From Methanomicrobiales archaeon (GTDB lineage Archaea; Halobacteriota; Methanomicrobia; Methanomicrobiales; Methanospirillaceae): 46,339 bases of DNA. Under the pieces are notes generated by a model. The model did no database searches. It saw only the letters and a program-made list of their open reading frames with translations, and was not told where the DNA came from. The position numbers were made by a program, and so were the translations under genes. Numbering within the stretch: the first letter of the stretch is position 1; each line of letters starts with the position of its first letter. This document shows, piece after piece, positions 761-38,315 of the stretch. The DNA lies in contig JAAYCY010000056.1 in assembly GCA_012729535.1 (NCBI GenBank), positions 1-46,339 on the forward strand, in the 5' to 3' direction.

Positions 761-1548
761 GAATATATGTAGGGTCTTTGAAGGTATCAGAATATCTTTG
801 AGGGATAAGAGGGACCACCACGGAAGCCGAACGGTTGACCCTGCAGACGGGGAAGCGACGACAGGAGCGACCGGATGCAGGAGTCAACTTTTCGGCGTGC
901 TGGGTATCGGGTTTAGCCGATACCCGGGTCCGCAGCCAGATTGAGGGAGGGCCTCCCCTGGCCATCCCGCTTGTAAGGCGAGGACCGGAGCCCCTTCGCC
1001 AAGGGGCAGGACCGCTCCGGCTGCAGAGCAGACGGTCCAGCGGTCCGGGGTCGGTAAAGTATCCGGAGTGGAGGAGATTATACTGACGAATGAGGACCGG
1101 ACCTAGGACGAGCACCACAGCGAAGCGAGGAGCACAGCCGCAGGGAGGACCGGAGTGAGGAAGGGTATGCTCTCCGGAGCGTAGTCTGCTATTCATCTCA
1201 TGCCCAGGAAAAAACCGGAGTGTCGGGAACGAGTGAGCCGGTCCGGAACGGTCCGGCGATTGAGTGACCAAAGCGGAGCACCGGCGAACTGATCCCTGAC
1301 GAGCCGCAGGCGAGGAGGGGATGAGTGAGCATATTCCTGAATGACTCACCAGGCGGCCACACGCCGGACGGAGCGAAGCGGAGGAGGAGTGTGCCCCCAG
1401 AGGGTTCGCCGGCAGGGTGAGGATGAGGCCCCCTCTTCGGCTTGGTAGAGGGGGGCCGGCGAAAGCCAGGGGGAGTCGGTCGCAGGGGCGTAGGATGGAT
1501 TTAGAAAAGCATAACCGCCCTCTTTCAGATACTAATACTATTCATTGT
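761..1548. other. GC-rich, hairpin-dense non-coding region
   Basis: No convincing gene was found in this stretch; the long frames on both strands are low-complexity and rich in Arg, Ser and Pro. It does hold several perfect inverted repeats: GGGTATCGG 902-910 with CCGATACCC 917-925; GCCCCTT 990-996 with AAGGGGC 1001-1007, enclosed by CCGGAGC 985-991 and GCTCCGG further right; and the long stem at 1394-1473. A GAGGACCGGA-like word recurs near 979, 1090 and 1147, and a GAGCGAAGCGAGGAG-like word recurs near 1120, 1301 and 1369. It may be a large structured RNA, a replication or recombination region, or decayed repeats. Confidence 0.6.
1394..1473. other. Long compound stem-loop (possible ncRNA or DNA hairpin)
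   Basis: Three nested arms pair: CCCCC 1394-1398 with GGGGG 1469-1473; TTCGCCGG 1405-1412 with CCGGCGAA 1456-1463; CCCCCTCT 1429-1436 with AGAGGGGG 1447-1454, closing a 10-nt loop. The arms are perfect 8-mers in order, which is unlikely by chance at this spacing even in GC-rich DNA. It lies about 100 nt before the helicase start. Strand and function cannot be decided from the sequence. Confidence 0.6.
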
Positions 1549-5004: not shown

Positions 5005-5030
5005 TAAATAATTAAAATAGTTGTGATATC

Positions 5031-7943: not shown

Positions 7944-7947
7944 TGGG

Positions 7948-10900
7948 ATGGGAGAAAAAAAATCAATTTTCATAAGTTCCACATACACTGATTTGATTGA
8001 AGAACGAAAGGAAGCTATCGATGCTGTTGATATTCAATGGTATGCAATTGCAATGGAAAAGTTTCCATCTTCTGATCGACATGCCAAAAATGATTGTCTG
8101 GAAAAAGTTCGTGAAGCCGATGCAGTTATTCTCATAATAGGTGGACGATATGGGTATATCGATCCCGACGAACACATTTCGATCACAGAAATTGAATATA
8201 ACGAAGCATTACGATTAAAAATCCCAATTTTTGCTTTTTTCAACCAAAATTCAAAAAAAGAAGAAGATTCACCACTTTTTGATAAATTTATAGAACGAGT
8301 AAAAAAAGACAGAAAGCATACAAAATTTAAATCTTGTTCAGAGTTACGTGAAAATATTATTCGTACGATTTGTGAGTATGAAAGAGAAAATGGAGAAATC
8401 GGGGTACTGATTAAGATAGTATGTAATGATACAGATTTTTATGAGCCATATATTAACCCAGAAGAAAGATTTAATTATCTTCAACCATTTGTTGGACGTG
8501 AATCCTCTATTGATGAATTAAATTTCTTTCTCAATTCACCGCACAGGATAGGAATAATTATTGGAGATGGTGGTCTTGGGAAAAGTAAACTCCTCTACGA
8601 ATGGTCACGAATAATAAAAGGAAAGAAAAATGACATTTTAATTCTATTTTTAAGAGAGGGAATTATTCCAACTGAAAATTCATTTCGACAAATCCCCTCT
8701 TCAAAACAAGTAATAATCATAGTAGAGGATGCTCATAAACGAACCGATTATGATTATGTTTTAAACAACCTCTTTTTTTCACACTCTCGTCTAAAAATTA
8801 TTTTTTCAACTCGAAGATATGGTCTACCAGGAATCAAAGTGAGAGTTAGCAACGCACACATACATAAATCAGATATTAAAGAGTTTAATGAGGTAAAACC
8901 ATTAAATAATAGTGATTTAGAGATATTGGGGCATTCTCTATTATCTACAGATAACTACGTATTTATTTCTCAACTACTCTCTCATGCAAGGGGTTCCCCC
9001 TTAATATTCTCAATCTCTTGTTGGTTAATACAAAATAAGCAGATAGATATTGGAACATTATATGCTGATGAAGATTTTGAATATGATGTTTACCAACGGT
9101 TTTTAGACGTAATTTCCCAAAATATAGCAAATTTATTCCCTGATAATCTCTATCAGAAAATTATCCAATTGATTGCGATTTTGAGTCCGTTTGATACTAG
9201 TAATAATGAGCTATTAGTGCATACATCAGATTATCTTCATATTACTACCCAAGAACTTCGCAATTTTTTTAATATCCTAAAAAACTTCGGAGTAATAGAA
9301 ATAACTGGATTTAATGTAAGAATTAAACCCGATGTGCTAGCTGATTACATCCTATTCAAAACATGTTTTGGATCTGATGGCACAACGACAGGATATGCAG
9401 AGAGCATTTTTAATTCCTTTTTTAAAGTATATCCCCAGAATATCCTTCAAAATATCACAGAAGTTGATCAATGGGCATCAAGTAAAAATTATCGATATAG
9501 TATTATTGACAATATTTGGTTACCGATATCCGAGAGTATCATTGAAGGAAATAATCTTCAAAGAATTCAATTACTAAAAGATATTGCGTTCATCTCATAT
9601 TATATCCCCGATAGATCCATTCAATTAGTAAATTCCTGTTTGAGAAAACCACAAGATACAATTTCTGATGGAATCCTTGGATTTGGTCATCTTGAATATA
9701 ATCATCTGAAAGTAACAGATGAACTCTGTGAAATTCTCTACAATATTAGTTTCAAAAAGGAATATTTACCAATTATTTGTGAAAGATTATGGTTCATCGC
9801 TAAGTTGGATACTAGGGAATATATTAGATCATCACCAATTTCAATAGAAAAATTAAAAAAGATTGCAAAGTATGAGTCACAAAAGCCACTTGAATATAAC
9901 AAAATAATACTGGATTTAATTAAATCATGGGTTGAATCTTCTGAAGAAGAGAGATTACAATATCATTTAGTTGATATTTTGTATGAGTTTTTGAAAAAAG
10001 AAGGGGAGGATACAAACTGGAAAGGATTTACTTTTTCTTATCGGCCTGTCTTTTTTCATCCTCAAAAAGTGTCAGATTTGAGGGAGTTATCTTTACATCT
10101 ATTTAATCAAATCATCATATCTAATTCTTTGAAAATCCAGCTACCTGCGGTTGAGGCTCTAATACACTCACTAAATCCTTTAATTATTAAACCCGAAAAC
10201 AAAGAAAAATTTCAAAAAATATTAGAACTTTGGGAAATTGAGGATCTAAGAACTCTTGATCTTATTAAATCAATAATTAAATCAACAGATAATTCGCTAC
10301 TCGCATTTGAAATTTATCTAAAAATTAGTTGGTGTGCTAAAGGGGAGAGTGAAAAATCAAAAAATGTAAGGGATATATTGGAATTAATCTCTTCCAAATT
10401 TGACTTTTCTTTAATTCGTTGTATTCAAGGAAGATTTGAGCGAGAATTCGAGGATGATTATACTAAATATCATGAAAAATTAGACGGTTATATTACTAAT
10501 TCAATTCAAGAATTGATAAAAACAAAATCTCCTCTCGATTTTTTAGAACTACTTGAATCCCAGATTCGAACACATATAGAAGCATCAATAGGAATAAATC
10601 CAAATCAATTCCTCTCAATGCTAGGCACAATTAACCCAAATTATGGGTCAGAAATTGTTAGAACTATATTAAATCAGAACAAAGTTTTTCTCTATCGTTA
10701 TGTTGGATCAATAATCAATGGAATTTCTGGTAATAACTCTGATTTAGCTAAAAAATTATGTGAAGAGATTATTGAAAGAGATATCTATGAAGTACAACTG
10801 TCGTTAAGCCATTTTTTTGTTTGGGGACAATTATGCAATACTCTATCTGATAACGTCTACGAAATAATTCAGTTCTTTCTTAAAAGTGAAAATGAAAATC

Positions 10901-11820
10901 TGAAAATCAATGGAATAAAATCAATAGCTAGATTAAAAGAAAATTATATCGAAGAGGGTTTGAATTATATTAAAGATTGTCAAATTAATGACTCTTTCAA
11001 TTTACTGCAAGCAATTTGTGAAACATCAAGTGATATTCATCATAATTATCCGGATCTCAATATATCTGAAATTCTTGAATCTATTCTTCGAAAAATGGAT
11101 TTTGTGTGTTCATTTGGTGCCGGTTATATGGACTATGAAATCAATCAAGTTCTTGAGATAAGTAGCAAAATAGTACCTCATTCCGTCATTGATATGATTA
11201 TTCGTCGTATCTCAATCGCTGAAGAAAAGTACCAAAACAGAATATATGATTATGAAGTATTTCCCCACAATGGTTTACACATAGAATTAGAGGGGATTTT
11301 TAGTTCTCCTCAATATCATGACTTTCTTATACATATCCGAAATTTAACAATACAATATGATCAAAGATCTTATGGACCAATACCCGAAATCTTTGCTTGG
11401 CTTTCCAATAATTATTCTGAATCCGCTCTTCAGGTATTACTTGAATGGATACAACAAGATAGTGAAGATAAGATCAATGCAGTAACCTATCTGATTAAAG
11501 AGGCTCCCACTGATTTCTTAATTAATAATCATGAATTTTGCAGTAAATTGATTGAAAAATCAGCGGTTACTAGTGAAGAATGCTATAAAAAGAGTATATC
11601 ATCTCTCCTTGGTGTATTCCGCTATCAAGCTCGAACACGAACCTTAGGAGAGCCAGATCCAGTAATTCAAAAATTATATGAAGATTCTCAAAAAATTGCT
11701 GCCCTTTATCCTAAGGGAAGCAATACAGAACAGTTTTACTCCAATTTGTCTAAAGAAGCAATGAAAGATATTGAAATGGAATTATTACATGATGAGCATA
11801 TGCTTGATACACATTCATAG
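7948..11820 (+). CDS. DUF4062 + STAND-like NTPase with long helical C-terminus (1290 aa)
   Basis: Residues 1-100 match DUF4062: K-S-I-F-I-S-S-T-Y-T-D-L-I-E-E-R near the start and A-D-A-V-I-L-I-I-G-G-R-Y-G-Y near residue 60, a TIR/SIR2-like Rossmann region. A P-loop NTPase follows: F-V-G-R-E, Walker A G-D-G-G-L-G-K-S near 205-212, Walker B I-I-I-V-E-D-A-H near 255, and a F-S-T-R-R sensor. The remaining 900 or so residues look mostly alpha-helical with no motif I recognise. This is the layout of STAND sensors: N-terminal effector, NTPase, repeat-like sensor. It starts 4 nt after the methylase stop, so it is translated with it. It is much AT-richer than the genes around it, consistent with a late insertion. 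The immune-sensor role is inferred. Confidence 0.75.
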   Translation: MGEKKSIFISSTYTDLIEERKEAIDAVDIQWYAIAMEKFPSSDRHAKNDCLEKVREADAVILIIGGRYGYIDPDEHISITEIEYNEALRLKIPIFAFFNQNSKKEEDSPLFDKFIERVKKDRKHTKFKSCSELRENIIRTICEYERENGEIGVLIKIVCNDTDFYEPYINPEERFNYLQPFVGRESSIDELNFFLNSPHRIGIIIGDGGLGKSKLLYEWSRIIKGKKNDILILFLREGIIPTENSFRQIPSSKQVIIIVEDAHKRTDYDYVLNNLFFSHSRLKIIFSTRRYGLPGIKVRVSNAHIHKSDIKEFNEVKPLNNSDLEILGHSLLSTDNYVFISQLLSHARGSPLIFSISCWLIQNKQIDIGTLYADEDFEYDVYQRFLDVISQNIANLFPDNLYQKIIQLIAILSPFDTSNNELLVHTSDYLHITTQELRNFFNILKNFGVIEITGFNVRIKPDVLADYILFKTCFGSDGTTTGYAESIFNSFFKVYPQNILQNITEVDQWASSKNYRYSIIDNIWLPISESIIEGNNLQRIQLLKDIAFISYYIPDRSIQLVNSCLRKPQDTISDGILGFGHLEYNHLKVTDELCEILYNISFKKEYLPIICERLWFIAKLDTREYIRSSPISIEKLKKIAKYESQKPLEYNKIILDLIKSWVESSEEERLQYHLVDILYEFLKKEGEDTNWKGFTFSYRPVFFHPQKVSDLRELSLHLFNQIIISNSLKIQLPAVEALIHSLNPLIIKPENKEKFQKILELWEIEDLRTLDLIKSIIKSTDNSLLAFEIYLKISWCAKGESEKSKNVRDILELISSKFDFSLIRCIQGRFEREFEDDYTKYHEKLDGYITNSIQELIKTKSPLDFLELLESQIRTHIEASIGINPNQFLSMLGTINPNYGSEIVRTILNQNKVFLYRYVGSIINGISGNNSDLAKKLCEEIIERDIYEVQLSLSHFFVWGQLCNTLSDNVYEIIQFFLKSENENLKINGIKSIARLKENYIEEGLNYIKDCQINDSFNLLQAICETSSDIHHNYPDLNISEILESILRKMDFVCSFGAGYMDYEINQVLEISSKIVPHSVIDMIIRRISIAEEKYQNRIYDYEVFPHNGLHIELEGIFSSPQYHDFLIHIRNLTIQYDQRSYGPIPEIFAWLSNNYSESALQVLLEWIQQDSEDKINAVTYLIKEAPTDFLINNHEFCSKLIEKSAVTSEECYKKSISSLLGVFRYQARTRTLGEPDPVIQKLYEDSQKIAALYPKGSNTEQFYSNLSKEAMKDIEMELLHDEHMLDTHS

Positions 11821-11880
11821 AAACGCAAATACTGAACCAATTAATAAAGAATTCATATTCTAAAAACATATATTTTTATA

Positions 11881-14799
11881 ATGCCCCCAAAACCCTGGTA
11901 CAAGGTCGTCACCCCTCGGGAAGATCTCCGTGAAGGTCGGCCGCTCGACACCGCAGAGTTTGCAGTCCATCTTGATCACGTCCGTGATGGAAGAGCTCCG
12001 CCGGATTACCAGGATCCACGACGCTTTTTTGACCGTACATTCATGACCGAAAACCTGACTTTTCTTGCCAGTCAGGTAATCAGGAGATTATCCGGGCAGA
12101 AGGTCGAGACCTCGGCGGTTTTTAATCTCGCAACACAATTTGGAGGGGGGAAAACCCATGCCCTCACGTTGCTCTATCATCTGGCGACTTCTGGACCTGA
12201 AGCCGTATCATACACCGGTGTATTTCCTGTCTTGAATGCAGCACAGATTAGTCAGATACCAAAAGCAAGGGTGGCGGTTTTTGTCGGTACTGAGTTTGAT
12301 TCTAATACCGGTCGGGGTGGCGCTGATGGAACTCCTATACGGAAAACTCCATGGGGGGAGATTGCATGGCAACTTGGAGGGATGGAATCATTTGGAAAAG
12401 TACTGATTCAGGAGAAGAAACTTGAAGCTCCTGGTGGAGATGTCATCCGTTCTTTTATCCCGAAAGACACTCCCTGCCTAATCCTCATCGACGAACTGAT
12501 GAATTATGTCACGAGATATCGGAAACAGGGATTATCAGATCAACTCTATGCGTTTCTTCAAAACCTTTCTGAAACCATTCGTGGCCTAGATAATGTGGTT
12601 TTAGTCGTTTCCATACCAGCATCAGAACTTGAGATGACTGCAGAAGATCAGAGTGATTATGATCGTCTCACAAAACTGCTTGACAGGATCGGGAAACCAA
12701 TTCTGATATCTGCAGGAAAGGAAACACATGAGATCATCAGAAGAAGACTCTTTGAATGGGACGGGCTTCCCAAGGAAGCAAATGAGACGATCAAACAATA
12801 TTCTCAATGGATATTAGAACACCGGGATATTCTTCCCGGTTGGTTTCAGACCGAGCAGGCAGATAAGGAGTTTGCTGCCTCATACCCATTTCATCCTCTG
12901 ACCATCTCTGTATTTGAACGGAAATGGCAGGCACTTCCCAAATTTCAGCAGACAAGAGGTGTGTTGAGACTCCTTGCTCATTGGGTTTCCCGGGCATATC
13001 GGGATGGATACAAGGGGGCTCATAAGGATCTTCTTATTGATCCTGGAACGGCTCCTCTTGATGATTCAAATTTTCGCATCGCAGTCTTTGAACAACTTGG
13101 GGAGAGACGCCTTGAAGCAGCGGTTACTACCGATATTGCTGGTTCAACCACCTCGCATGCAATCAGACTTGATCAGGAAGCAGGAGAAGAGATTAAAAAG
13201 GCCAGGCTTCATTTGAAAGTAGCCACTGCAATATTCTTAGAGTCGAACGGAGGCCAGGCGAAAAAAGAGGCTACCATACCTGAACTTCGTCTTGCTCTCG
13301 GTGCTCCTGGCATTGATGTGATGAATATTGAGACTGCTCTTGAAGCTCTTGCTCCTCCTGGGGGGATATGTTATTACCTTCATTCAAATGGGGAAAAGTA
13401 CTGGTTTCATACGGTACCTAATCTTGTCAAAGTAGTTTCAGACCGGAAAGCTGCGGTAGCCCCACAAATCGAATCGGAGATGAAAAAGATTGTTGAAACA
13501 GTCTTTTCTCAGGGAAATAGAATTGATAAAGTGTTCTATCCTCAGCAGAGTAACCAGATATCAAATACCCCCAGTTTAAAACTGGTCATATTATCTCCGG
13601 AACAATCAGTTACAGACGCAAAAACAATCAGCACGATTACCAAAATGACCGAAGAGCATGGAACGAGTGGGAGAACTTACAAAAATGCTCTCATTTGGGT
13701 TATCCCTGACGATATTCATGCTTTGAAAGAAGAGGTGAGAACCTATCTAGCCTGGCTAGACCTGAAAGATAAACCTGAGCCGGGATTTGATAAAGACCAA
13801 CGAAGCCAGGTAGAATTGGGTCTAAAAAAGTCGGAACGTGATGCAAAAGAAGCAGTCTGGCGATCATACATTCATCTTGGACTGTGGGATAAGAGTAATA
13901 CCATCCGGACCCTCGACCTTGGTATGAATACTTCGAGTTCTGCAAACAACATTATCGAACTCATTCTTCATCATCTCGAATTAAATGGGGAGATTACGGA
14001 TAGCATCGCTCCGAATTTTTTAAAGAGAAACTGGCCTCCTGCATTTGTTGAATGGCCGACGCAACACGTTCGAGATACCTTTTACGCATCACCAATCTTT
14101 CCACGATTATTGCATCCGGAGAAAATTGTCGATTGTATAAAGCGGGGAGTTGAGGATGGAACGTTCGGATACGGTGGGGTTTTAGAAAATGGTTCATATG
14201 ATCCATTCTATTATTTTGAGAACCTCCCAACCCAAAACATTGAAATTAGTCAAGATATGTATCTCATCCCCCAGGATAAAGCAAAGTCATACAAAGACCA
14301 AATTTCGAAACCTAAACAAATCTCACGTATTGAAGTTCAGTCACCAAATAATACTATATACTCTGGAAAAACGGGATATTATTCTGCAAAAGGATATGAT
14401 GTGGATGGAAATGAGGTCACTCTTCCATCAATAACATGGACTTCTGATGCGGGATTAATTTCGGATCAAGGAGTGTTGTCGGTTCATGAAACTCCAGGTG
14501 AGTATCATGTCACTTGTTCATCAGGTGATATATCTATTAGTATTCCGGTAATTGTTAAAAAGAAAGAGAAAGATGAACCAGATCCTGAATTGAATCCCGA
14601 GACCTGGACCGGAGAACTCGATCCAAATGAGTGGATGTCATTTTATACCAAAATTATTGACCATGTAGGAGTTTTTAGTGAAGGAATCAAAATAGATGTC
14701 ACCTTCAGCATCACCGATCCGTCCTCTATTGATCCCGACCGACTTGAGAAGATCAATCAGGCATTCAGGGAGATGAGACGGTTTAGGAAGTTGGATTAA
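11881..14799 (+). CDS. DUF499 AAA+ ATPase with C-terminal Ig-like domain (972 aa)
   Basis: The N-terminus (P-W-Y-K-V-V-T-P-R-E-D-L-R-E-G-R) and Walker A variant F-G-G-G-K-T-H near residue 86-93, with Walker B C-L-I-L-I-D-E-L near 199-206, fit the DUF499 ATPase family. Known neighbours of DUF499 are DUF1156 methylases and DUF3883 helicases, exactly the partners here. Residues about 815-905 read as a beta-rich Ig/BIG-type domain (regular D-G-N-E-V-T, T-W-T-S-D, G-V-L-S-V, G-E-Y-H-V-T-C steps), unusual in a cytoplasmic ATPase. A 60-nt AT-rich gap follows the DUF4062 gene; TATATTTTTATA lies directly before the ATG, perhaps too close to act as this gene's own TATA box. Composition returns to a higher GC than the preceding gene. 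Confidence 0.82.
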   Translation: MPPKPWYKVVTPREDLREGRPLDTAEFAVHLDHVRDGRAPPDYQDPRRFFDRTFMTENLTFLASQVIRRLSGQKVETSAVFNLATQFGGGKTHALTLLYHLATSGPEAVSYTGVFPVLNAAQISQIPKARVAVFVGTEFDSNTGRGGADGTPIRKTPWGEIAWQLGGMESFGKVLIQEKKLEAPGGDVIRSFIPKDTPCLILIDELMNYVTRYRKQGLSDQLYAFLQNLSETIRGLDNVVLVVSIPASELEMTAEDQSDYDRLTKLLDRIGKPILISAGKETHEIIRRRLFEWDGLPKEANETIKQYSQWILEHRDILPGWFQTEQADKEFAASYPFHPLTISVFERKWQALPKFQQTRGVLRLLAHWVSRAYRDGYKGAHKDLLIDPGTAPLDDSNFRIAVFEQLGERRLEAAVTTDIAGSTTSHAIRLDQEAGEEIKKARLHLKVATAIFLESNGGQAKKEATIPELRLALGAPGIDVMNIETALEALAPPGGICYYLHSNGEKYWFHTVPNLVKVVSDRKAAVAPQIESEMKKIVETVFSQGNRIDKVFYPQQSNQISNTPSLKLVILSPEQSVTDAKTISTITKMTEEHGTSGRTYKNALIWVIPDDIHALKEEVRTYLAWLDLKDKPEPGFDKDQRSQVELGLKKSERDAKEAVWRSYIHLGLWDKSNTIRTLDLGMNTSSSANNIIELILHHLELNGEITDSIAPNFLKRNWPPAFVEWPTQHVRDTFYASPIFPRLLHPEKIVDCIKRGVEDGTFGYGGVLENGSYDPFYYFENLPTQNIEISQDMYLIPQDKAKSYKDQISKPKQISRIEVQSPNNTIYSGKTGYYSAKGYDVDGNEVTLPSITWTSDAGLISDQGVLSVHETPGEYHVTCSSGDISISIPVIVKKKEKDEPDPELNPETWTGELDPNEWMSFYTKIIDHVGVFSEGIKIDVTFSITDPSSIDPDRLEKINQAFREMRRFRKLD

Positions 14800-14812
14800 T
14801 TCAATAGAAAAT

Positions 14813-14934
14813 GGGGAACCTGGATTTTTCCGGAACATCGGAACGATCAGGTGGTGGTGAATTGACAACAGAAATCAGAGTGCCCGATGCTCTCCCCTGG
14901 CAGTATTATGAAGGACCGGTATCGGGCCGGTCCT
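14813..14934 (+). repeat. 122-nt direct repeat, copy 1 (left flank of RecQ module)
   Basis: This block matches 19784-19905 over 122 nt with about 10 mismatches by hand alignment, six of them clustered in one 21-nt stretch; the first 53 nt have one mismatch. It ends in a perfect 8-bp inverted repeat (AGGACCGG 14912-14919, CCGGTCCT 14927-14934), and similarity between the copies stops exactly at the last base of that hairpin. A second small hairpin, TTCCG/CGGAA, lies in the leader part. It begins 13 nt after the DUF499 stop. Confidence 0.85.
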
Positions 14935-14942
14935 GTAGATAA
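14862..14942 (+). pseudogene. Truncated 5' fragment of a small element gene, copy 1
   Basis: A TTG start preceded by GGTGGTGAA gives 26 codons and then TAA. The peptide (L-T-T-E-I-R-V-P-D-A-L-P-W-Q-Y-Y-E-G-P-V, then S-G-R-S-C-R) matches the start of the frame at 19833 (L-T-I-E-I-R-V-P-E-V-A-P-C-Q-Y-Y-E-G-P-V, then S-G-R-S-S). After S-G-R-S the two copies diverge completely. Several nucleotide differences keep the amino acid similar, so the sequence was once under protein selection. I read it as the stump of a gene cut by the neighbouring module. Confidence 0.6.
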
Positions 14943-15051
14943 ATCAAGGTTTTAACCAGAATAGTACCCCTTTAAAGTTGTTTAATTAAGAAATAGTTCT
15001 CGCCAATTTTAACCACATTAGAATTTAATAATAGTATATCGATTATTGTTC

Positions 15052-15210
15052 ATGGATAACAATGATGCAACAATTAGAACTTGCTCTCAATGTGGCGAGG
15101 AAACCGAAAATGAGTATGATGATTATGAGTGGGAAGATCGCGATTGTCTCTGTGAAATATGTGAGCAGGAAAGAGAAGAAGAAGAATTAATCGCATTAGA
15201 TATTATCTGA
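15052..15210 (+). CDS. Acidic zinc-ribbon microprotein (52 aa)
   Basis: The frame runs from ATG 15052 to TGA 15208-15210. The protein has C-S-Q-C near residue 11 and C-L-C-E-I-C near 33, a plausible treble-clef or ribbon zinc site, with Glu/Asp-rich stretches on either side (E-T-E-N-E-Y-D-D-Y-E-W-E-D and E-R-E-E-E-E). A TTTAATAA box sits about 25 nt upstream, and a hairpin with a T-run follows directly, so it looks like a complete one-gene unit. It faces the coiled-coil gene (15265-16017) convergently. Family unknown. Being small, acidic and next to a helicase-nuclease pair, it could be a regulator or a DNA-mimic inhibitor, but that is a guess. Confidence 0.6.
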   Translation: MDNNDATIRTCSQCGEETENEYDDYEWEDRDCLCEICEQEREEEELIALDII

Positions 15211-15212
15211 TC

Positions 15213-15237
15213 TCTATTCTTAAAAGAATAGATTTTG
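15213..15237. terminator. Bidirectional hairpin terminator
   Basis: TCTATTCT (15213-15220) pairs with AGAATAGA (15225-15232) around a 4-nt loop, followed by TTTTG. It lies 3 nt after the microprotein stop and 28 nt past the end of the convergent coiled-coil gene, so it may serve both. Confidence 0.6.
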
Positions 15238-15264
15238 TTATAAAACACATAATATATGAATTAT

Positions 15265-16017
15265 TCATCGAATAAGTACAAAAATAAAATTCATTATCAA
15301 TAATCCTATGACAAAATATAGAATAATCTCAATCTTTTTTATTAAAGTGTAAATTTCTGAATCCTGTTTCTCATTTTTCTTGAGTTTTGAGTAGATAGCT
15401 GGAACAAATTTTAATGATTTCTCCCATAATGAATCATAACGATTAGAATTTTCATCTATAATTTTTTGAAAGATGATATTATTTTTTTCAGATTGGAGAG
15501 AAAGATTTTTATTAATATTATCTATAGTAGTCAAACCTGTTTTTATTTGTTTATCGGTTTTCTCTTGAAATGCATTTAAAATTAAATAATTCTGTTCGTT
15601 AGTTTTCCATAATTTTTGAAAATTAGAATGATTATTGGTTTGAATTTCTTGAATAATTTCTGTGCTTTTTTGAGTGTTTAAAAGAAGAGATTGGTGACTA
15701 TTTATTATTTCATCCAATTTTGATTTGGTATTAGAGATTTGTTGCCCCATTTCCCCTTGAATAATATGAGTTCTTTCAAAATTACTCTCTACCTTCTGCC
15801 ATAATTCTTGAAATTTTCCTGAACTATCAGGAATATCAACTATTGCTTTCTGAAAATCAAAAAACAAATTCCTCAATAATGATGACTGTTCATCGAATTT
15901 TAAGGAAACTTCATGGAGATGATTAATCTCCTGAGAATATTCGGATACAATTTCCCCAATTTTTAAAATATTTTCTTCTTGTTTTTGAATTAATTCTCGA
16001 CGGTCAATATCAACCAT
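15265..16017 (-). CDS. Coiled-coil protein with C-terminal membrane anchor (250 aa)
   Basis: Residues about 10-210 are a long, Gln/Glu/Lys/Asn-rich helical stretch with heptad-like hydrophobic spacing, read as coiled coil. The last 20 residues or so (I-L-Y-F-V-I-G-L-L-I-M-N-F-I-F-V-L-I) form one hydrophobic segment with a terminal Arg, and there is no N-terminal signal. This is the topology of a tail-anchored protein with its coil in the cytoplasm. The ATG is 2 nt after the RecQ-nuclease stop, and GAGGGG inside the end of that gene acts as ribosome site, so the two are translationally coupled. I do not recognise the family. By context it may anchor the helicase-nuclease at the membrane or sense membrane damage, as coiled-coil membrane subunits do in some defence systems. 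Confidence 0.65.
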   Translation of the reverse strand: MVDIDRRELIQKQEENILKIGEIVSEYSQEINHLHEVSLKFDEQSSLLRNLFFDFQKAIVDIPDSSGKFQELWQKVESNFERTHIIQGEMGQQISNTKSKLDEIINSHQSLLLNTQKSTEIIQEIQTNNHSNFQKLWKTNEQNYLILNAFQEKTDKQIKTGLTTIDNINKNLSLQSEKNNIIFQKIIDENSNRYDSLWEKSLKFVPAIYSKLKKNEKQDSEIYTLIKKIEIILYFVIGLLIMNFIFVLIR

Positions 16018-16019
16018 AA

Positions 16020-19000
16020 TTACCCCTCTTCAGATTTTATTCGTTGAAAATGTCCAATCACCATGTTGGACAACTGCATAACTGAATATTCATGAGATTC
16101 ACTATATTCAGGAGCGATAAGATAAATCTCTTTTACCAAGGACTTATATGAATTATATTCTAACAAATGCATGAGAATATTATCTAACGCCCTATCAGGT
16201 AATGATGAATTTTTTAATGCCGTAATAAATTCCTTAATTGCAATGACAAATTCATCATCGCTTTTGCACTGTTCCTTGAGAAATATAAGACCATTTGCTA
16301 AATCAATAGATTTTTCATATATACCGAGAGCTATTTCACTACACCCGTTAATTATCAGTAATCCTGGGTGAAAGAAAAAATCACTTAACTCTTTTCTGCA
16401 AGAACCAGAAATTTGATTTAATAAATCATGATCAAAAAAATCAATTGATTGGAAATAATTCCACCATATAATGGGGGTATTTGATTCCCGAATATTAATT
16501 ATTTCTGACTTCTCCCTGGCTTTAAGATATGCTAATAATCGTTGTTTGAAAAAATCTTCGCCTAACTTGACACCTTCACGTGAGTAGGTAAGGATATCAT
16601 AATACGCACGTCTTCTTCTTTCAGCGATGTAGGTATACACATAATTAATAAGATGCTCACCACAAGAAAAAACAGTTTCAGTAAAAGACGATTCTTCATT
16701 TCGACAAGATTTGATAATATTATCAATTTCGATAGGACTGAGATACTTCTTCAAATAATTAAAAAATTGTAAATAAACCTGATTCCGTTCGATTTGGGAT
16801 AATATTATTTTATACTTCTGAATTTTTGAATACATCACAAAATAATGATCAATAATCCCAAGAATGGTCAATTGATATAAGGCCCTTTCCACCTCTTCTT
16901 TGGAGATTTTGTGGGAAACATCGTTGATCTCAATTTCTTCAAAATCATCTGGAACAATCTCGATCGCATTATCTTTAGGATAATTGTCTAATGTGGAAAA
17001 AAGATATTTAAAAATTTCAAATTCAAATTGACTTCCTTTAAAACTATTCACTAAAAAAAATGCATTTCTAACAATATCCGGATGATTTGTATAATGGATT
17101 GGTAGTAAATGCTGAATCTTGTTTTCGATCTCTGAAAAGGGTGTTTTTATTGCATTAAAAAGTTCATCTGATATTTCAGGATATTCATCAGTAAATATTA
17201 GTACACATTTCGAAGGCTTTTTGTCCCTACCGGCTCGACCCGCTTGCTGATAAAAATCTTCAGCAGATTGAGGCAAAATATAATGGATTGTGAACCGAAT
17301 ATCGGGTTTATCTATCCCCATACCAAAGGCACTTGTACAAACCATTAAGGGGATTTTTCCAGATATAAAATCATCTTGAGTTTGATTTTTTATTTTTTTC
17401 CAAAGTTGTTCCGGAATGTTAGTATTAGGAGGTTTTCCAGAATATAATCCAATTTTTCCTTCAAAATGGCTCTGAATACTATTCCTTAAACTCTCTATGC
17501 CAATATCTTTTGATTTTACAAAATTTGTGAAAATTAGCCCACACCCGCCATTAGGGGTAATATGGCCTTTAAGTTCATCGAATTCGATAAGTAAACTTTT
17601 CATTCGTTCATTTGGGGAGGTTAATACAAATTTATATGATAATTCTTTGCGTTCAAAAGAAAAGGGTTCAATTATTGCTTCTTCATCAGATAAATCAAGT
17701 TCATTTACAATGTCTTTAAGAACATTATAAGATGCAGTACCAGTTAATCCAAAAAAAACTGGCATAAATGCCCCTTTTTCTTGAGTACTACGTTGAATAC
17801 GTTTTTTGATATTAAGATAGGAGGGACGAAAATCATGACCCCACAAACTCATGCAATGAGCTTCATCAATTACACAATAGGTAATGGGCACATTTGTTAA
17901 ATCTTGAACTAATTGGTTTGAAAAACCCTCGATCTGTAATCTTTCGGGGGCAATGAAAAGATATTGAATATGACCTTTTGAAAATTGATTTAGAATCCTC
18001 TCTTTATCTTCTTCATTCATCGTACTATTGATTTCCCCGACAGAATGTATGCCATAACTTTTAAGATTAAAGGTCTGGTCTTTCATCAGGGAAATAATCG
18101 GATCAATAATTATTATTCGGCCAGGTTGAAGAAGGGCAGAAAGTTGATAGCATAATGATTTTCCTGCACCTGTAGGAAGTAGGCCGATTACTGGTTCTAA
18201 CGATAATGCACGATCAATTATCGCAACCTGTCTCTCTCTGAATTTCTCTTTTCGAAATAAATTATTTAAGAAATAGTCCAGCGATTCTTTCCGGTTATCT
18301 GAAATTCTCCCATGAATTTTTAGAGGATTAGCAGGTAACAATGTCTCGCGATAATCCTGACGGATATAACAAGGACAGACTACTCCTGAACGAGATTTAG
18401 AAAAATCAACCCAATATTCAGAGGAATGATAATAATAGTAAACGATATCGCCATTTTCGGTTCCTAATTTTACGGAATAGTGCTTATTTTTAAGATCATA
18501 TAGTTTTAGAATCGCATCTATTGTCTTATTAATCGAATTCAATATTGGTTCAATGCCAAGTTTTTGTTGGTCGATAATAATAATATCGGTTTTTCCTTTT
18601 CGGATATACTGGCCAATTATATACAACAATTGGGCTTCTATTATTGGAAACGAAATCAGGTTAACAATTGCGTTTCTTCTACTTTGATCGTATTCGCGAA
18701 GTCTTTTTGCGGTTATTAATATCGAATCAGAAATCTCTTTGACGATAATATCCCTGATCTTTTTTACCTGGTTTCTCGATGCATCATTCCAACTATAATC
18801 ATTAGAATTGGGATCTTTTATTAAGGGGATTCGTATTACTGTGTATCCTTCTTTTCGTAATTCCGCGTCCCTTTTTATGTCATCTTCGATTTGGTGTTGA
18901 TGATGCTCTTCATCAATCTCAATAATTATTTTTTCCGGAGGTTTGAAAATGAAAGGTAAATTAACTAAGAAATCAACCCTTTCCTCTCTTTGTTCTTTCC

Positions 19001-19619
19001 TAGTGATTATTGAATCTATATGAACTTGAGGGAGTATAAAAAGTAACAACCTTTTATCAGGAAGTTCCTCTTGAAGGAGATCAAGGAATTTTTTTTCTTG
19101 TTCACCATCAGTTATTGCTTTATACCAATCGATTATTTTGTCGACTTCGTCATCAGTTGTAAGTAATTCAGGGATTAAACATACCTTAAAAAAGTTTGAT
19201 AATAAGGATTCGATATCAGTGGATACAAGAAACTCAATATTCCCAGCACTTGATAATGGATTTAAATCGTTGGAAGTATCAAAAAATATTTTTTCTTTAA
19301 TCGAATCAATTAAAACAGTTTTTTCGGTATCAATAAAACAAGGAGCAGGTCGACCACGTGTGGCTAATTTAGTTAAAATAGATGCAATAAATTGGTTTTC
19401 TGGATCAGATTCAATTTCTGAAATAGTTGAGGTATCATATAAAAACCCATGATGATGACTGAATAGATTTTGAATTATATCATCAGAGAAGCCTTTGCCA
19501 TCTGTTAGAATTTTTATAATAGAAGGAGCGGCAAAAGTGGCTGTGGCTTTTTCATTTTTTAACCATGGGCAAATATTATTTTTTGAAACCATTTCGTGAC
19601 CAATTCTTCGATTATTCAA
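16020..19619 (-). CDS. Vsr/DUF559-like nuclease fused to RecQ-family helicase (1199 aa)
   Basis: After an N-terminal region of unknown type, residues about 205-275 carry a DUF559/Vsr-like endonuclease pattern: V-D-F-L-V, then I-I-I-E-I-D-E-E-H-H, then a conserved-looking R-K-E-G-Y-T-V-I-R-I-P strand. A RecQ-type helicase starts near 460: R-E-R-Q then Walker A P-T-G-A-G-K-S near 480, D-E-A-H-C-M-S-L-W-G-H-D-F-R-P near 585, G-L-T-G-T-A, and Q-Q-A-G-R-A-G-R-D near 792. RecQ enzymes unwind DNA 3'-5'; here the N-terminal nuclease suggests cutting coupled to unwinding. The C-terminal 350 residues look helical. It is AT-rich, opposite in strand to the flanking defence genes, and cotranscribed with the tail-anchored gene. 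Fusion architecture is clear; a role in defence is inferred from the setting. Confidence 0.8.
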   Translation of the reverse strand: MNNRRIGHEMVSKNNICPWLKNEKATATFAAPSIIKILTDGKGFSDDIIQNLFSHHHGFLYDTSTISEIESDPENQFIASILTKLATRGRPAPCFIDTEKTVLIDSIKEKIFFDTSNDLNPLSSAGNIEFLVSTDIESLLSNFFKVCLIPELLTTDDEVDKIIDWYKAITDGEQEKKFLDLLQEELPDKRLLLFILPQVHIDSIITRKEQREERVDFLVNLPFIFKPPEKIIIEIDEEHHQHQIEDDIKRDAELRKEGYTVIRIPLIKDPNSNDYSWNDASRNQVKKIRDIIVKEISDSILITAKRLREYDQSRRNAIVNLISFPIIEAQLLYIIGQYIRKGKTDIIIIDQQKLGIEPILNSINKTIDAILKLYDLKNKHYSVKLGTENGDIVYYYYHSSEYWVDFSKSRSGVVCPCYIRQDYRETLLPANPLKIHGRISDNRKESLDYFLNNLFRKEKFRERQVAIIDRALSLEPVIGLLPTGAGKSLCYQLSALLQPGRIIIIDPIISLMKDQTFNLKSYGIHSVGEINSTMNEEDKERILNQFSKGHIQYLFIAPERLQIEGFSNQLVQDLTNVPITYCVIDEAHCMSLWGHDFRPSYLNIKKRIQRSTQEKGAFMPVFFGLTGTASYNVLKDIVNELDLSDEEAIIEPFSFERKELSYKFVLTSPNERMKSLLIEFDELKGHITPNGGCGLIFTNFVKSKDIGIESLRNSIQSHFEGKIGLYSGKPPNTNIPEQLWKKIKNQTQDDFISGKIPLMVCTSAFGMGIDKPDIRFTIHYILPQSAEDFYQQAGRAGRDKKPSKCVLIFTDEYPEISDELFNAIKTPFSEIENKIQHLLPIHYTNHPDIVRNAFFLVNSFKGSQFEFEIFKYLFSTLDNYPKDNAIEIVPDDFEEIEINDVSHKISKEEVERALYQLTILGIIDHYFVMYSKIQKYKIILSQIERNQVYLQFFNYLKKYLSPIEIDNIIKSCRNEESSFTETVFSCGEHLINYVYTYIAERRRRAYYDILTYSREGVKLGEDFFKQRLLAYLKAREKSEIINIRESNTPIIWWNYFQSIDFFDHDLLNQISGSCRKELSDFFFHPGLLIINGCSEIALGIYEKSIDLANGLIFLKEQCKSDDEFVIAIKEFITALKNSSLPDRALDNILMHLLEYNSYKSLVKEIYLIAPEYSESHEYSVMQLSNMVIGHFQRIKSEEG

Positions 19620-19657
19620 ATAACCAACTCAGGTATTTAGATATTGATTCATCGTAA

Positions 19658-19670
19658 TTTATATTTATAC
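19658..19670 (-). promoter_or_regulatory. TATA-like box for RecQ-nuclease operon
   Basis: On the minus strand TATAAATATAAAT lies about 40-50 nt before the ATG at 19619, allowing a leader of about 15-25 nt. The rest of 19620-19783 is AT-rich and without a gene. Confidence 0.5.
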
Positions 19671-19783
19671 TGACATCTTTATTTTTATTTATTTAATCGG
19701 TATAATATTCAAAATTCAAATACGATATAGAAAATTATTTCTAAATAAATTATTAGGAGAATCTTAAACAAGATTAGAAAAGA

Positions 19784-19905
19784 GGGGAACCTGGGTTTTT
19801 CCGGAACATCGGAACGATCAGGTGGTGGTGAATTGACTATAGAAATCAGGGTGCCCGAGGTTGCACCCTGCCAGTATTATGAAGGACCGGTATCGGGCCG
19901 GTCCT
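19784..19905 (+). repeat. 122-nt direct repeat, copy 2 (right flank of RecQ module)
   Basis: Partner of 14813-14934 in the same orientation, about 92% identical. It carries the same leader, the same GGTGGTGAA ribosome site and TTG start, and the same terminal inverted repeat (AGGACCGG 19883-19890, CCGGTCCT 19898-19905). The interval between the copies contains exactly the microprotein, coiled-coil and RecQ-nuclease genes. Confidence 0.85.
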
Positions 19906-20336
19906 CCATGCTCCCCGAGCCGTGTATCACGGCACATACGTGTCGCATCGCTTACAATAACCGGCTTTCGAAAACCGGTCAGACTTTTTCAGGAAGATAT
20001 CTTCCCGATGATCGAGAGTGCTCCGGCTGCAAGATCAGGAGGGGGATAATCCTCCTCCTCCATATGCAGAGCACCGATCACCTCGCTGGCAAAAATAAGC
20101 GATTCATATGCCAGGCTGCGGTACTTCATCCAGGTTATCACGAGCCCGATACCATTAAGAACAGCTGCTCCGGTAGAGACCAGAGCCAGGGCGAGATTAC
20201 CATCCATCATACTCACCTCCTCCCAGGGCAACCACTTCAGAGACCTGCATCGGACCAGCGGCATAGGTACGGCTGTTTTCTGTGGTATTATTACTCCGGG
20301 TTTCGGTTGAGAGAGACACCTGGCCGGTCCCGTTGA
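19833..20336 (+). pseudogene. Cysteine-containing small element gene, probably chimeric after about residue 70
   Basis: From the TTG at 19833 (good GGTGGTG site) the frame is open for 167 codons, but only the first 70 or so look like protein: L-T-I-E-I-R-V-P at the start, then C-I-T-A-H-T-C and C-S-G-C, a possible zinc site. Beyond about 20040 the frame runs antisense through the better-supported minus-strand membrane genes (19989-20210 and 20197-20766), so that part is probably not real. The natural C-terminus seems lost, or the real gene overlaps the end of the minus gene tail to tail. Function unknown. Confidence 0.4.
19989..20210 (-). CDS. Small membrane protein (73 aa)
   Basis: The start is set at ATG 20210 because GGAGGTGAGT lies immediately upstream, inside the last codons of the preceding gene; longer readings to 20264 lack such a site. 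The protein has one hydrophobic stretch (L-A-L-A-L-V-S-T-G-A-A-V-L-N-G-I-G-L-V-I-T-W) after four residues, then a charged tail with E-E-E-D and P-P-P. It overlaps the upstream gene by 14 nt, so it is the third member of a coupled minus-strand operon. Family not recognised. Its 3' end overlaps a plus-strand gene fragment, so the last 15-20 residues may not be original. Confidence 0.5.
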   Translation of the reverse strand: MMDGNLALALVSTGAAVLNGIGLVITWMKYRSLAYESLIFASEVIGALHMEEEDYPPPDLAAGALSIIGKISS

Positions 20337-20766
20337 TCAGTATCCTGGACCGGGTTCCTCCTTCTCCTACCTGTTTGGTCGAAATGATCTGTCCGTTCTG
20401 CATCAGCCCGGATGAGGCAAGATCTTCTGATCGCCTCTCCTCATTCTTTGTCCCCATGAAGGAACAGAGGAACGAGGAAACATCCGGTATCCGGTAGTTC
20501 CCGGCATACTCATCATACCCGATTGCTCCCGAACTGTTCACCCGGATGGTGGATTCAACCGGTCCGGTGAACCGGAGATCCCGGGAGAGGACCGCCCGCT
20601 CATCAGTGAAGAGATGCTGACTGTACGACTGGTTCAGCCCGATGAATGATCCGGACAGCAAAGCCGCTCCATCACAACTGATGGAGGTTGAGATCATATC
20701 AGCCTGAGAGAACTGCCATCCAATAAAGAGACAGATCGCCCCGGCTATTACGTAGTACCAATTCAT
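20197..20766 (-). CDS. Membrane-anchored, probably extracellular beta-rich protein (189 aa)
   Basis: The second ATG (20766) is chosen because GAGG is 6 nt before it; the first ATG (20772) sits directly against that site. Residues 4-16 (Y-Y-V-I-A-G-A-I-C-L-F-I-G) form an N-terminal membrane segment. The rest is rich in Ser, Thr, Gly and Asn with alternating strands and several N-x-S/T sites, typical of archaeal surface or virion-spike proteins. Two cysteines (about residues 31 and 102) could form a disulphide. It lies between a soluble-looking protein (20809-21312) and a small membrane protein. I suspect envelope or virion components of the host element, but no family is recognised. Confidence 0.55.
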   Translation of the reverse strand: MNWYYVIAGAICLFIGWQFSQADMISTSISCDGAALLSGSFIGLNQSYSQHLFTDERAVLSRDLRFTGPVESTIRVNSSGAIGYDEYAGNYRIPDVSSFLCSFMGTKNEERRSEDLASSGLMQNGQIISTKQVGEGGTRSRILINGTGQVSLSTETRSNNTTENSRTYAAGPMQVSEVVALGGGEYDGW

Positions 20767-20808
20767 TCCCATACCTCGGAAAGGGAAAAAAGGGGGTATT
20801 GTATCTGG

Positions 20809-21312
20809 TTATGCGAGTGCAACTATCGTGTCAGCCCAGGTCTCAAGCCCGGTCCGGATGGCATCAGCCTCATAAGATGAGAGGGTGACGGAATCACGGG
20901 CAAACCGGACCGAGTAGAGCTCACCGTTGGAGTGATGGCACTTGAGGGTGCAGCTGAACCGGTCCTCTGAGCTGTCATGGGACGGGGTGCCCCCCATTGC
21001 GGTATTCAGGGCGGTGGTGGCAACGATGGTGCTGACATCAGTGTTGAAGGCTGACGGAGTCGGAGCCTTGATGCTGATGGTCCCGACAGTCTTGGCCTCG
21101 TTATTCTCATAAATGACCCGGCCGGTATAGGACTCTGATGCCTTCGAGACCCCAGGGAGGGTTACTCCGGCCTGTTCATAGGACGTACATCCCCACGGAT
21201 TATTGGTCAGGATGTCGTCGATAATTGAGGTGAAGGCTGCCATACTGTCAATGGGAGCTGCAAGCTCCCTGACTGCAGTCTTCACCGTTGCAGTCTGTGT
21301 GAAATCTGCCAT
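20809..21312 (-). CDS. Unknown 167-aa protein, first gene of GC-rich mini-operon
   Basis: The start is placed at ATG 21312 (M-A-D-F-T-Q-T-A) with AGGGG about 10 nt upstream; the longer frame to 21342 would run into the leader hairpin. The protein is soluble-looking, Ala/Ser/Thr-rich, with T-L-P-G-V-S-K-A-S-E-S-Y-T-G-R-V-I-Y-E-N and strand-like segments alternating with helices, ending in a helix (A-D-A-I-R-T-G-L-E-T-W-A-D-T-I). Size and composition would suit a small structural protein such as a capsid or matrix subunit, but there is no motif evidence. A TATA-like box and a stem-loop leader lie upstream. Confidence 0.6.
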   Translation of the reverse strand: MADFTQTATVKTAVRELAAPIDSMAAFTSIIDDILTNNPWGCTSYEQAGVTLPGVSKASESYTGRVIYENNEAKTVGTISIKAPTPSAFNTDVSTIVATTALNTAMGGTPSHDSSEDRFSCTLKCHHSNGELYSVRFARDSVTLSSYEADAIRTGLETWADTIVALA

Positions 21313-21328
21313 GTTCGATAGACCCCTG

Positions 21329-21344
21329 CCGTGATTTCTCACGG
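21329..21344 (-). promoter_or_regulatory. Leader stem-loop with GAAA tetraloop
   Basis: On the minus strand CCGTGA-GAAA-TCACGG forms a perfect 6-bp stem with a GNRA tetraloop, just upstream of the ribosome site of the gene at 20809-21312. It should sit at the very 5' end of the mRNA given the TATA box at 21366-21373, so it may stabilise the transcript or be a protein-binding site. Confidence 0.6.
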
Positions 21345-22038: not shown

Positions 22039-25000
22039 ATGAAGTATAAGGATATAGTCCAATTCGATTCAATTGAAGGAACGATTCAGTTAAGAGATGC
22101 TGATGAACTGGCAGGCGCCGAGAGGCTAGTAAAAACTTTTGTGATATCTCAAGGAATGGCCGAAAAACTGGTGGGTCAAATCATACCACAATTGAGTTTA
22201 ACTACGACAATAGATCGAAAAGGCCTGTTTATTGTGGGTAATTATGGGACTGGTAAGTCTCATATGATGTCTGTCCTTACGAGTGTACTTGAGTATCCTA
22301 ATATTTACAAATATATTGCAAATGAAAAGGTCCGAAATGAAATTGAACCATTATCGGGAAAGTATAAAGTAATCAGGACAGAAATCGGGGCAGTAAAAAG
22401 ACCAATTCGCGATATTTTTTGCAGTGTTCTGGAAACAGAACTAGAGAAAATAGGAGTCAATTACAAATTTCCAGCTGCCGATGAGACAAAGAAAGCGAAT
22501 AATAAAGATGATCTCATTGCCATGATGGGAGCATTTCAAGTAAAATATCCCGATACTGGATTGATATTTGCTATTGATGAAATGCTTGAATATCTTCGTC
22601 AAAGGCCTGAATTGGATCTCATTTATGATTTGATATTTTTGAGGGAATTAGGAGAATCCTGTAAATATTCTCATTTTAGGTTTTTAGCAGGCATTCAAGA
22701 GAGTTTATTCGAATCTCCCAGATTTCAATTTGCTGCAGATACTCTTCGAAGGGTAAAGGATCGGTATGAGCAGATACGGATAATGAAAGAAGACATCAGT
22801 TATGTTGTCTCTGAACGATTGCTTAAAAAGGATGATAAACAAAAAGCAATTGTCCGTGAACATCTTTCTCAGTATTCCTCATTATACTCCCAAATGGCTG
22901 AGCGCATGGAGGAATTTGTTTCACTGTATCCAATTCATCCATCATATATTGAGACCCTGGAGCTTTTGTTCATCGTAGAAAATAGACATATTTTGCAGTC
23001 AATTAGTAAAGATCTCACAGCCCTAATGGAGGAGAAAGTACCTCAAGATGCTCCAGGCCTTATCTCTTTTGATCGTTATTGGAAAGTTATGAAACAGGAT
23101 GTTTCGTTATTGTCTGACCCGAATATCCATAAAGTCATAGATAAAGGAACTGTACTTGAAAATCTCATTTCCCGTTCTTTTCCAAAACCCCAATATAAGG
23201 AAGCAGCACTTCGGATCATTCATGGGCTCCTGGTTGCTAGACTCCAAACGATCGATATTTATAAACCCACTGGCCTGACTTCAGAACAAATAAAAGATGA
23301 ACTGTGCATTTTTCTGAAAAGTATACCTGAAAAAGAATCGCAATTCCTCCTAACAACAGTTGAATCTATTATTAAAGATATTGTTACAACCGTTTCAGGG
23401 AAATTTATCTCTAAAAATGAAGAGAATAAACAATACTATATTGATTTAGAAAAGAGTGTTGATATTGATCTGCTCATTGAGGAGAAAGGTGCTGGTCTCA
23501 ATGATGATCAACTGGACAAATACTATTTTGAATCTCTCACCCGTTTGATGGATAGACCAGATACAACCTATGTTAGTGGATATCGTATCTGGGAGCATGA
23601 ACTCATATGGAAAGACCGTAATGTGGGTAGGATGGGATACCTCTTCTTTGGAGCCCCTAATGAGAGATCAACAGCCCAACCACCAAGAGATTTCTATCTT
23701 TATTTCATTCAGCCTTTTAATCCTCCAGTGTTTAATGATGAACATAAACCTGATGAAATCTTCTTTAGGCTCATTAAAAAAGATGATGCATTCATTGATG
23801 CACTTCGGAAATATGGTGGTGCCAGAGAGATGTCTGCTATTACAAATGTAAAAGACAGACAAGATTATGATAGGAAGGCTCAAGGATATCTCAAGGATAT
23901 TGTCCAATGGCTTAGTGCCAATATGGGTCATTCACTTGAAGTAACTTATCAAAGTCAAACAAAGAAACTGGTTGAATGGAGTAAGGAATCAACTATTCCT
24001 CTGGGCCCAGAGGTTCATCGTGCGATAAATGAAATCGCTTCTTATTGTGTATCTCCCCATTTCAATGATATATCTCCTGATTATCCTAAATTCTCAGTAA
24101 CTATCACCTCGACAAACCGGCATGATATGGTAATAGATGCCTTATCCTGGATAAAGGGGAGGACAACGAAATCAGGATCACAGGTATTAGCAGGACTTGA
24201 GTTAATGACTGAAGGAGTCTTAACTCCAGAAAAATCTCGATATTCACAATACATTCTCACTACTCTTTCTGAAAAACAAGGTCAAGTAATAAACCGTCAG
24301 GATCTGATAGGGTTATTAAATGGTGTTGAATATGATAAGAAATTTAGGATAGAGCCTGAATTGTTTATGGTTGTCTTATCAGCACTCGTTTGGAGAGGTT
24401 CTATTGTAATCTCATATGTGCATGGAAAAATCGATGCCAGTAATGTCGATACAATGGCAAAAATGGCTGGAGATGACCTTATTGCCTTCAAACATCTTGA
24501 ACCTCCGAAAACGACTCCAATCGAATTATTAGAATATCTTTTTACAACCATTGGTCTTCGACCTGGAGAAATTTCAAATCCAGCGACACAGGAAAGTGCA
24601 GTTGAATCATTACAAAGAAAGGTAGAACAAGAAGCCAAAAACATTGCAGTAGCTCTTGATCAACTTAATAAACGTGTCACTATTCTTTCTGAACCTCTTC
24701 CTTCAGATGAAGTGATGTCTTCACTCATTATTGAATTAAAACAAGGGAAAGAACTCCTTGAATCACTCCGCAGATTTAACAGTGTGGGTAAATTAAAAAA
24801 TTTCAATCTTTCCCGTGATGATGTTGATCTCATTAAAAAATGCATCACCTCGCTACAGATTATTTCAGAATACTCCCGATTAATCAACGAGTTAAACCCG
24901 ATTACCTCATATATTCAGCAAGTTAGTATCATCCTTCCAACACTGGAAGGAGAAGAGATCAGGAAGGAAATAGATAACGCAAGATCCAAGATTCGATGTT

Positions 25001-25731: not shown

Positions 25732-25796
25732 GTAGATATTCAGGGTGACACTGTAACTACATTTCTCCTATAATTTCATGTGAATTAGTGACTATA

Positions 25797-33801: not shown

Positions 33802-33809
33802 GTGAATTA

Positions 33810-38311: not shown

Positions 38312-38315
38312 GAAT

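Follow-up and report, generated by a model that had tools for sequence, protein, structure and literature searches.

The membrane-held nuclease of SNIPE shows that cutting phage DNA at the membrane, while it is being injected, works as a defence (PMC13190303), and Zorya and Kiwa are further membrane-localised defences that target DNA (PMC12904381). Other described systems combine helicases with nucleases or toxic domains: ARMADA and Druantia type III carry a helicase and a Vsr-type or other nuclease on one chain (PMC12458937), and RqlH joins an N-terminal helicase to a C-terminal PRTase (~690 aa) that is required for its toxicity (PMC4670107). Here we describe a gene pair from a 46,339-nucleotide (nt) stretch of DNA (hereafter, the window) that covers positions 1–46,339, forward strand, of contig JAAYCY010000056.1 of a Methanomicrobiales archaeon (GenBank assembly GCA_012729535.1), a methanogen to judge by its relatives. 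The pair consists of a RecQ-family helicase with a putative N-terminal Vsr/DUF559-type nuclease (1,199 amino acids (aa); 16020–19619, minus strand) and a 250-aa coiled-coil protein with a predicted C-terminal membrane anchor (15265–16017, minus strand). On balance, we favour the reading that these two genes form a system against invading viral or plasmid DNA, in which the helicase-nuclease is held at the membrane.

The pair resembles each of the systems above in part. With RqlHI/PsyrTA it shares a RecQ-type helicase in a small conflict operon and, in a relative on an Escherichia coli plasmid, a DprA neighbour; the PADLOC PsyrT model also matches the window helicase, over the core only. It differs in having a Vsr-type nuclease before the helicase and a coiled-coil anchor partner, and we found neither a Pfam match to a PRTase on the window helicase nor a DprA-like gene beside it, the neighbours being the coiled-coil gene and, beyond the repeat, open reading frames (ORFs) without a Pfam family at 19989–20772 (minus strand). 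ARMADA and Druantia type III use a YprA (DUF1998) helicase with a C-terminal nuclease (Vsr or PLD), and the available part of the source describes no tail-anchored coiled-coil partner (PMC12458937); the window helicase has no DUF1998 match and belongs to the RecQ family instead. Zorya likewise has a helicase-nuclease working with membrane proteins (PMC12904381), but there the membrane component is the proton-driven motor ZorAB and ZorD is SNF2-type, whereas the window pair combines RecQ with a single C-terminal membrane helix, and its coiled-coil protein has no PADLOC match to ZorA or ZorB. SNIPE comes closest to our working model in that a membrane-held nuclease cuts entering phage DNA (PMC13190303), but the DUF4041 of its nuclease binds the tape measure protein (PMC12904381) and it has no RecQ helicase; neither window protein matches DUF4041. 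We therefore rejected membership in PsyrTA, Zorya, ARMADA/Druantia and SNIPE on features, and the pair has no defining component in common with SNIPE, Zorya or Kiwa. An earlier note on this DNA, made from the sequence alone, had not recognised the locus as a named system, and the literature, which we covered in part, likewise yielded no description of the pair under any name.

The helicase gene was assigned using Pfam, NCBIfam, PADLOC, AlphaFold/Foldseek and an alignment of 17 members. Its ORF starts with TTG; the ATG at codon 10 would serve equally well as the start. The protein passes the NCBIfam RecQ family model (recQ_fam, TIGR00614; 247.6 bits, cut-off 219.8) and falls below the equivalog model for the housekeeping enzyme (TIGR01389; 285.6 bits, cut-off 640). 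Pfam DEAD and Helicase_C also match, and neither the RecQ zinc-binding domain (RecQ_Zn_bind) nor an HRDC domain was detected with Pfam or NCBIfam. The AlphaFold model (pLDDT 74.8) led Foldseek to RECQ1 and RecQ at E~1e-21. The RecQ core covers approximately aa 440–823 (17151–18302, minus strand), with GKS at 486–488, DEAH at 585–588 and QxxGRAGR at 791–798, and is followed by a C-terminal region (aa 824–1199; 16023–17150, minus strand) comprising a winged-helix-like part and then a helical array.

The nuclease domain, at approximately aa 154–305 (18705–19160, minus strand), is supported by a DUF559 match (PF04480; 25 bits against a curated cut-off of 20.6, E 1.8e-5), by invariant columns and by the predicted fold. 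Its region 205–275 contains RVDF, EIDEEHH and DIKRD, and D216, E234, D236, H240, D247, R250 and D251 are identical across all 17 aligned homologues, as are the ATPase motifs GKS, DEAH and QxxGRxGR. When aa 140–440 were predicted alone (pLDDT 82.9), the best VIA-align matches were Vsr-like PD-(D/E)XK enzymes, namely AbaSI (Z 8.4 over 131 residues, rmsd 4.9), I-Bth0305I (Z 7.8) and PvuRts1I (Z 7.3), with Bax1, VRR-NUC, TnsA and Hjc also among them. Because these Z values are modest (8.4 at best), the assignment leans also on the residues: the domain is a predicted Vsr-like PD-(D/E)XK nuclease on the combined strength of Pfam, residue conservation and the structural alignment of the model. Foldseek searches with the nuclease domain alone returned nothing below E 0.001. 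The natural reading of the strict conservation is that an active nuclease would be fused to an active motor. The earlier note had described the gene as a RecQ helicase with an N-terminal endonuclease pattern and had raised a PDDEXK fold for residues 205–275; the DUF559 match, the recQ_fam match and the RecQ fold agree with the former, and the invariant acidic and histidine residues together with the Vsr-like alignment of the predicted fold agree with the latter. Between the nuclease and the helicase lies an alpha/beta sub-domain (aa 311–420; 18360–18689, minus strand) with weak matches to PRMT5 and pieces of V-ATPase (Z 6–8).

The start codon of the coiled-coil gene lies 2 nt past the helicase stop codon, a junction that has a GAGGGG run resembling a ribosome-binding site. 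Throughout this work, hydropathy served to call tail anchors, and coiled coils were recognised from composition and by inspection. In the window protein, hydropathy reaches its maximum at residues 231–249 of 250 (15271–15327, minus strand; mean 2.93 over 19 residues), predicting a C-terminal transmembrane tail anchor. The anchored gene and its 2-nt spacing thus stand as the earlier note had them. No family in Pfam, NCBIfam or PADLOC scored above its cut-off for this protein, and a tblastn search of plasmids with it gave no match.

The arrangement is widespread. A tblastn search of plasmids recovered the same gene order in Rhodothermus marinus, E. coli, Raoultella, Haliscomenobacter, Salinibacter, Thermomicrobium and Thermus: a nuclease-RecQ gene, then a coiled-coil-like protein of 160–290 aa with its sole membrane helix at the extreme C-terminus. 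The Thermomicrobium helicase has no recognisable nuclease, and in Thermus a transposase gene separates the two genes; coupling between helicase and partner takes the form of overlaps of 4–17 nt or short gaps, most of these plasmid pairs overlapping slightly. Scanning 84,980 genomes with the LTGTAS region of the helicase gave 39 loci: approximately 20 were long-form relatives, and approximately 18 held RecQ genes of other kinds, for the most part ordinary recQ (600–730 aa). Wherever the sequence downstream of a bacterial or nanoarchaeal long-form helicase could be read, it held a coiled-coil partner gene, and most such partners were tail-anchored. Over the first set of loci as a whole, window included, the gene directly downstream was tail-anchored in 16 of 22 loci.

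For a second set, a profile built from the 17 helicases reached further phyla, and 22 loci were newly fetched as a forward test, 21 of them readable downstream. The downstream gene was tail-anchored in 17 of the 21 (Fisher p 5e-20 against background); among the other four, two were coiled-coil proteins without a membrane helix and one began as a coiled coil but was longer, with an internal membrane segment. With both sets pooled, 33 of 43 downstream genes were C-terminally anchored (Fisher p 2e-29), a total that counts the window and a few near-duplicates. The background was a single anchored protein among 181 unrelated ORFs of 130–300 aa at the same loci; two had been listed, one of which was removed as the partner of locus L086 itself. 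None of approximately 14 genes following ordinary recQ (600–730 aa) was tail-anchored. Distances between helicases correlated with those between coiled-coil proteins (r 0.87; 0 of 5,000 permutations), which shows that the genes travel together and is not proof of contact. We conclude that helicase and coiled-coil gene are almost certainly a true pair, kept adjacent in many unrelated genomes, a co-occurrence on which the earlier note had made its proposal depend.

The sole anchored ORF of the background adjoins the Rhodothermus pair. On this plasmid (pRHOM17201; L020:10101-13584), a second tail-anchored coiled-coil protein is encoded beside the pair on the opposite strand, following a 775-aa protein that no Pfam family matches and a small gene whose annotation reads DEAD/DEAH helicase; these opposite-strand genes are possibly another membrane-anchored nucleic-acid system.

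By taxonomy, the pair spans about twelve phyla of bacteria and archaea. Its occurrence is patchy, at 0.6–4.3% of genomes in the sampled phyla, and it is often plasmid-borne. Profile matches numbered 4/247 in the window's own phylum, 3/251 in that of a Chloroflexota locus, 6/338 in that of the Opitutae locus, 2/343 in that of the planctomycete locus and 17/395 in that of a Flavobacteriales locus, counts that include profile-building loci where those fell in the sample. The nuclease motif was absent from all 42 RecQ-like loci in viral contigs, and a scan of such contigs with the Rhodothermus coiled-coil protein gave nothing, so there is no sign of a phage-carried pair.

The partner varies in its C-terminus. 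Most partners that are not anchored are coiled-coil proteins without a membrane helix, and those of Caldilineaceae-type Chloroflexota and Latescibacterota end in short basic-hydrophobic stretches such as KRKGLLL and RGIFFSWR; conserved tails of this kind close the helix-less partners of L071-L074, L084 and L085 and are a possible peptide or peripheral membrane signal. Several Methanomicrobiales (L018, L019/L076, L075) have no separate partner gene, and their helicases instead bear a long C-terminal extension with a basic-hydrophobic end, for example RVLLKLLAFFRK and RILLKLMAFFRR. In our reading, the helicase polypeptide itself has here taken over the anchor function, which would favour tethering, although the two anchor types are not demonstrably homologous, and three further loci (L070, L077, L080) have neither partner nor tail motif; their C-termini may be truncated. 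The partnerless helicases also bear on a different role for the coiled-coil protein, that of a regulator or inhibitor that keeps the nuclease sequestered there until it is set free by infection, at the membrane, in the manner of a Zorya-like release or recruitment. The tight translational coupling with the partner second would fit such a role, and ZorD is auto-inhibited and recruited at the membrane (PMC12904381), but a helicase that carries its own anchor-like tail does not require a separable inhibitor, and we regard this role as improbable.

Under the tethering model that we prefer, the coiled-coil protein would insert in the membrane through its C-terminal helix, and its cytoplasmic rod, or its oligomerisation, would hold the helicase-nuclease at the inner membrane face. 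The RecQ motor would load on single-stranded or branched DNA, translocate and unwind it, and pass the unwound strand on to the Vsr-type PD-(D/E)XK nuclease at its N-terminus. DNA coming in or being copied at the membrane would thereby be degraded, and the nucleoid spared by its location. Contact between the two proteins, their membrane localisation, DNA cleavage, activity against phages or plasmids and discrimination by location are all predictions of this model. The sensing of damage at the membrane that the earlier note thought conceivable drew no direct support; what the anatomy favours is a nuclease placed at the membrane, not any particular sensor. Action at the membrane is plausible because SNIPE, Zorya and Kiwa are membrane-localised DNA-targeting defences. 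More tentatively, at a little short of even chances, we propose an unnamed widespread system with a tail-anchored or tail-fused coiled-coil tether that would tell self from non-self by place and DNA structure, not by sequence or modification. If confirmed, RecQ helicases, usually genome caretakers, would join the membrane-bound defences that destroy DNA, and SNIPE's idea of membrane place as self/non-self discrimination would have a second architecture. The two genes stay together across a range that takes in archaea, Bacteroidota, Chloroflexota, Verrucomicrobiota and plasmids of enterobacteria; with its invariant catalytic residues, the pair is a ready target for experiment.

Several observations weigh against the tethered-defence reading. 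Not every partner has the anchor, since some in Chloroflexota, in Latescibacterota and at two Bacteroidota loci of the sample lack a membrane helix, and L191, the fourth unanchored locus of the forward test, shows no evident partner. No sequence similarity between the window coiled-coil protein and the other partners was detectable, so position and anatomy are what support treating it as their equivalent. The co-divergence could come from co-inheritance and nothing more. Finally, a PADLOC control around ordinary recQ genes also gave 51 families, largely UvrD- and ABC-type cross-matches, and we therefore treat the enrichment of the pair in defence islands as qualitative.

The genomic context nevertheless points towards immunity. 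In the window, the genes lie between an Hma-type system and a BREX system. Elsewhere, a CARF-HEPN Csx1 lies beside the relative in Rhodothermus, type I restriction beside that in Raoultella and a ShosA/PsyrA-family DprA beside that on the E. coli plasmid, and the relative in G061 adjoins HEC-01A/B and the Druantia-type helicase DruE. PADLOC matches among 102 neighbours included AbiE, SoFic, PsyrT and several PDC candidates. Supported by this context, a function in defence is probable. The plasmid location in several hosts and the DprA link of the E. coli form would also suit a membrane-associated helicase that serves plasmids and islands in repair, replication or DNA uptake, with no part in immunity. 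The patchy occurrence and the adjacency to several unrelated defence systems speak against it, as do the ordinary recQ that the host genome already possesses and the fusion of a restriction-type nuclease to the helicase; we judge a housekeeping role of this kind very unlikely.

A composite form was found on E. coli plasmid pXJW9B263-1 (L021:4828-10951) and at L022, where a DprA of the ShosA/PsyrA type precedes a 1,558-aa HAD-PRTase-DUF559-RecQ protein and a tail-anchored coiled-coil protein. It is present in 7 of 5,426 complete E. coli genomes, and links the pair to the DprA/PRTase toxin-antitoxin families. This form would make the pair testable in standard laboratory strains. It also lends weight to abortive infection or toxicity, whereby the helicase-nuclease would sense abnormal DNA and harm host and phage DNA alike, or the oligomerising membrane protein would itself kill the cell. 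A coiled coil with a membrane helix is a common effector anatomy, and the upstream DprA and N-terminal HAD-PRTase are toxin-antitoxin relatives. The toxicity of RqlH is documented (PMC4670107). Set against this, the nuclease and ATPase residues are strictly kept, most loci, the window included, have no DprA or other antitoxin candidate beside the pair, and some partners lack any membrane helix, which a membrane-killing effector would need. We consider abortive infection or toxicity unlikely, and retain the pair as a defence that would act on the invading DNA.

The earlier note had drawn the unit as a trio bounded by near-identical 122-nt repeats, and here our findings diverge from it. The genes enclosed by the repeats are the helicase, the coiled-coil gene and a 52-aa acidic CxxC...CxxC zinc microprotein (15052–15210, plus strand, ATG at 15052). 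Direct repeats do exist (14808–14934 and 19779–19905, both plus strand) and are the only two copies genome-wide, but "near-identical" was slightly generous, as we measured 91% identity over 127 nt; in other respects the note described the locus accurately. A role for the repeats as boundaries of the trio is not supported: a conserved chromosomal block (19779 to ~20750), native to an integration hotspot and single-copy in three relatives (G008, G002, G004), has the second copy as its left edge. In G008 this block lies ~0.6 kb from a tRNA-Glu, whereas in the window the same tRNA-Glu is 25 kb off, beyond BREX and a XerA-like integrase. Because the block is single-copy in relatives and near tRNA-Glu in G008, the additional copy after HmaC is best regarded as a seam that recombination in the hotspot left behind, and no part of the module. 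The repeats as ends of a transposon or cassette are unsupported, the relatives holding a single-copy hotspot seam. Across the hotspot (window 328-910, 19779-20750 and 46214-46287), the Hma system and the RecQ pair sit between the left flank and the block.

The microprotein was likewise ruled out as a third component of the system. The congener G001 encodes a 75%-identical homologue, located upstream of a TPR-UvrD-like helicase, and no full-length nuclease-RecQ turned up in that genome. This microprotein family thus adjoins helicase-type genes in two congeners, the RecQ pair in the window and the TPR-UvrD-like gene in G001 (L133, ~5735-5878). A further family without a Pfam match (MADFTQ.../MAHFTQ...) is shared between the window (20809-21342) and G001 (L133:6071-6547), near islands in both, and its G001 copy adjoins the microprotein homologue.

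PADLOC and Pfam annotation of the window placed the Hma-type system at 1576–14799 (HmaA, HmaB, a DUF4062-ATPase and HmaC) and BREX at 22039–39029 (BrxC, two PglX, BrxH, PglZ and BrxA). Hma, which is DUF499-centred and BREX-related, is the immediate upstream neighbour of the pair, but forms an operon apart, to which an SNF2-like helicase, a methylase and an ATPase belong (PMC12839542). Between HmaB and HmaC, this operon includes a 1,290-aa protein with DUF4062 and AAA_16 (7948-11820) and no PADLOC match, and downstream of BREX lies a gene for a 1,024-aa protein (39879-42953) that neither Pfam nor PADLOC matches.

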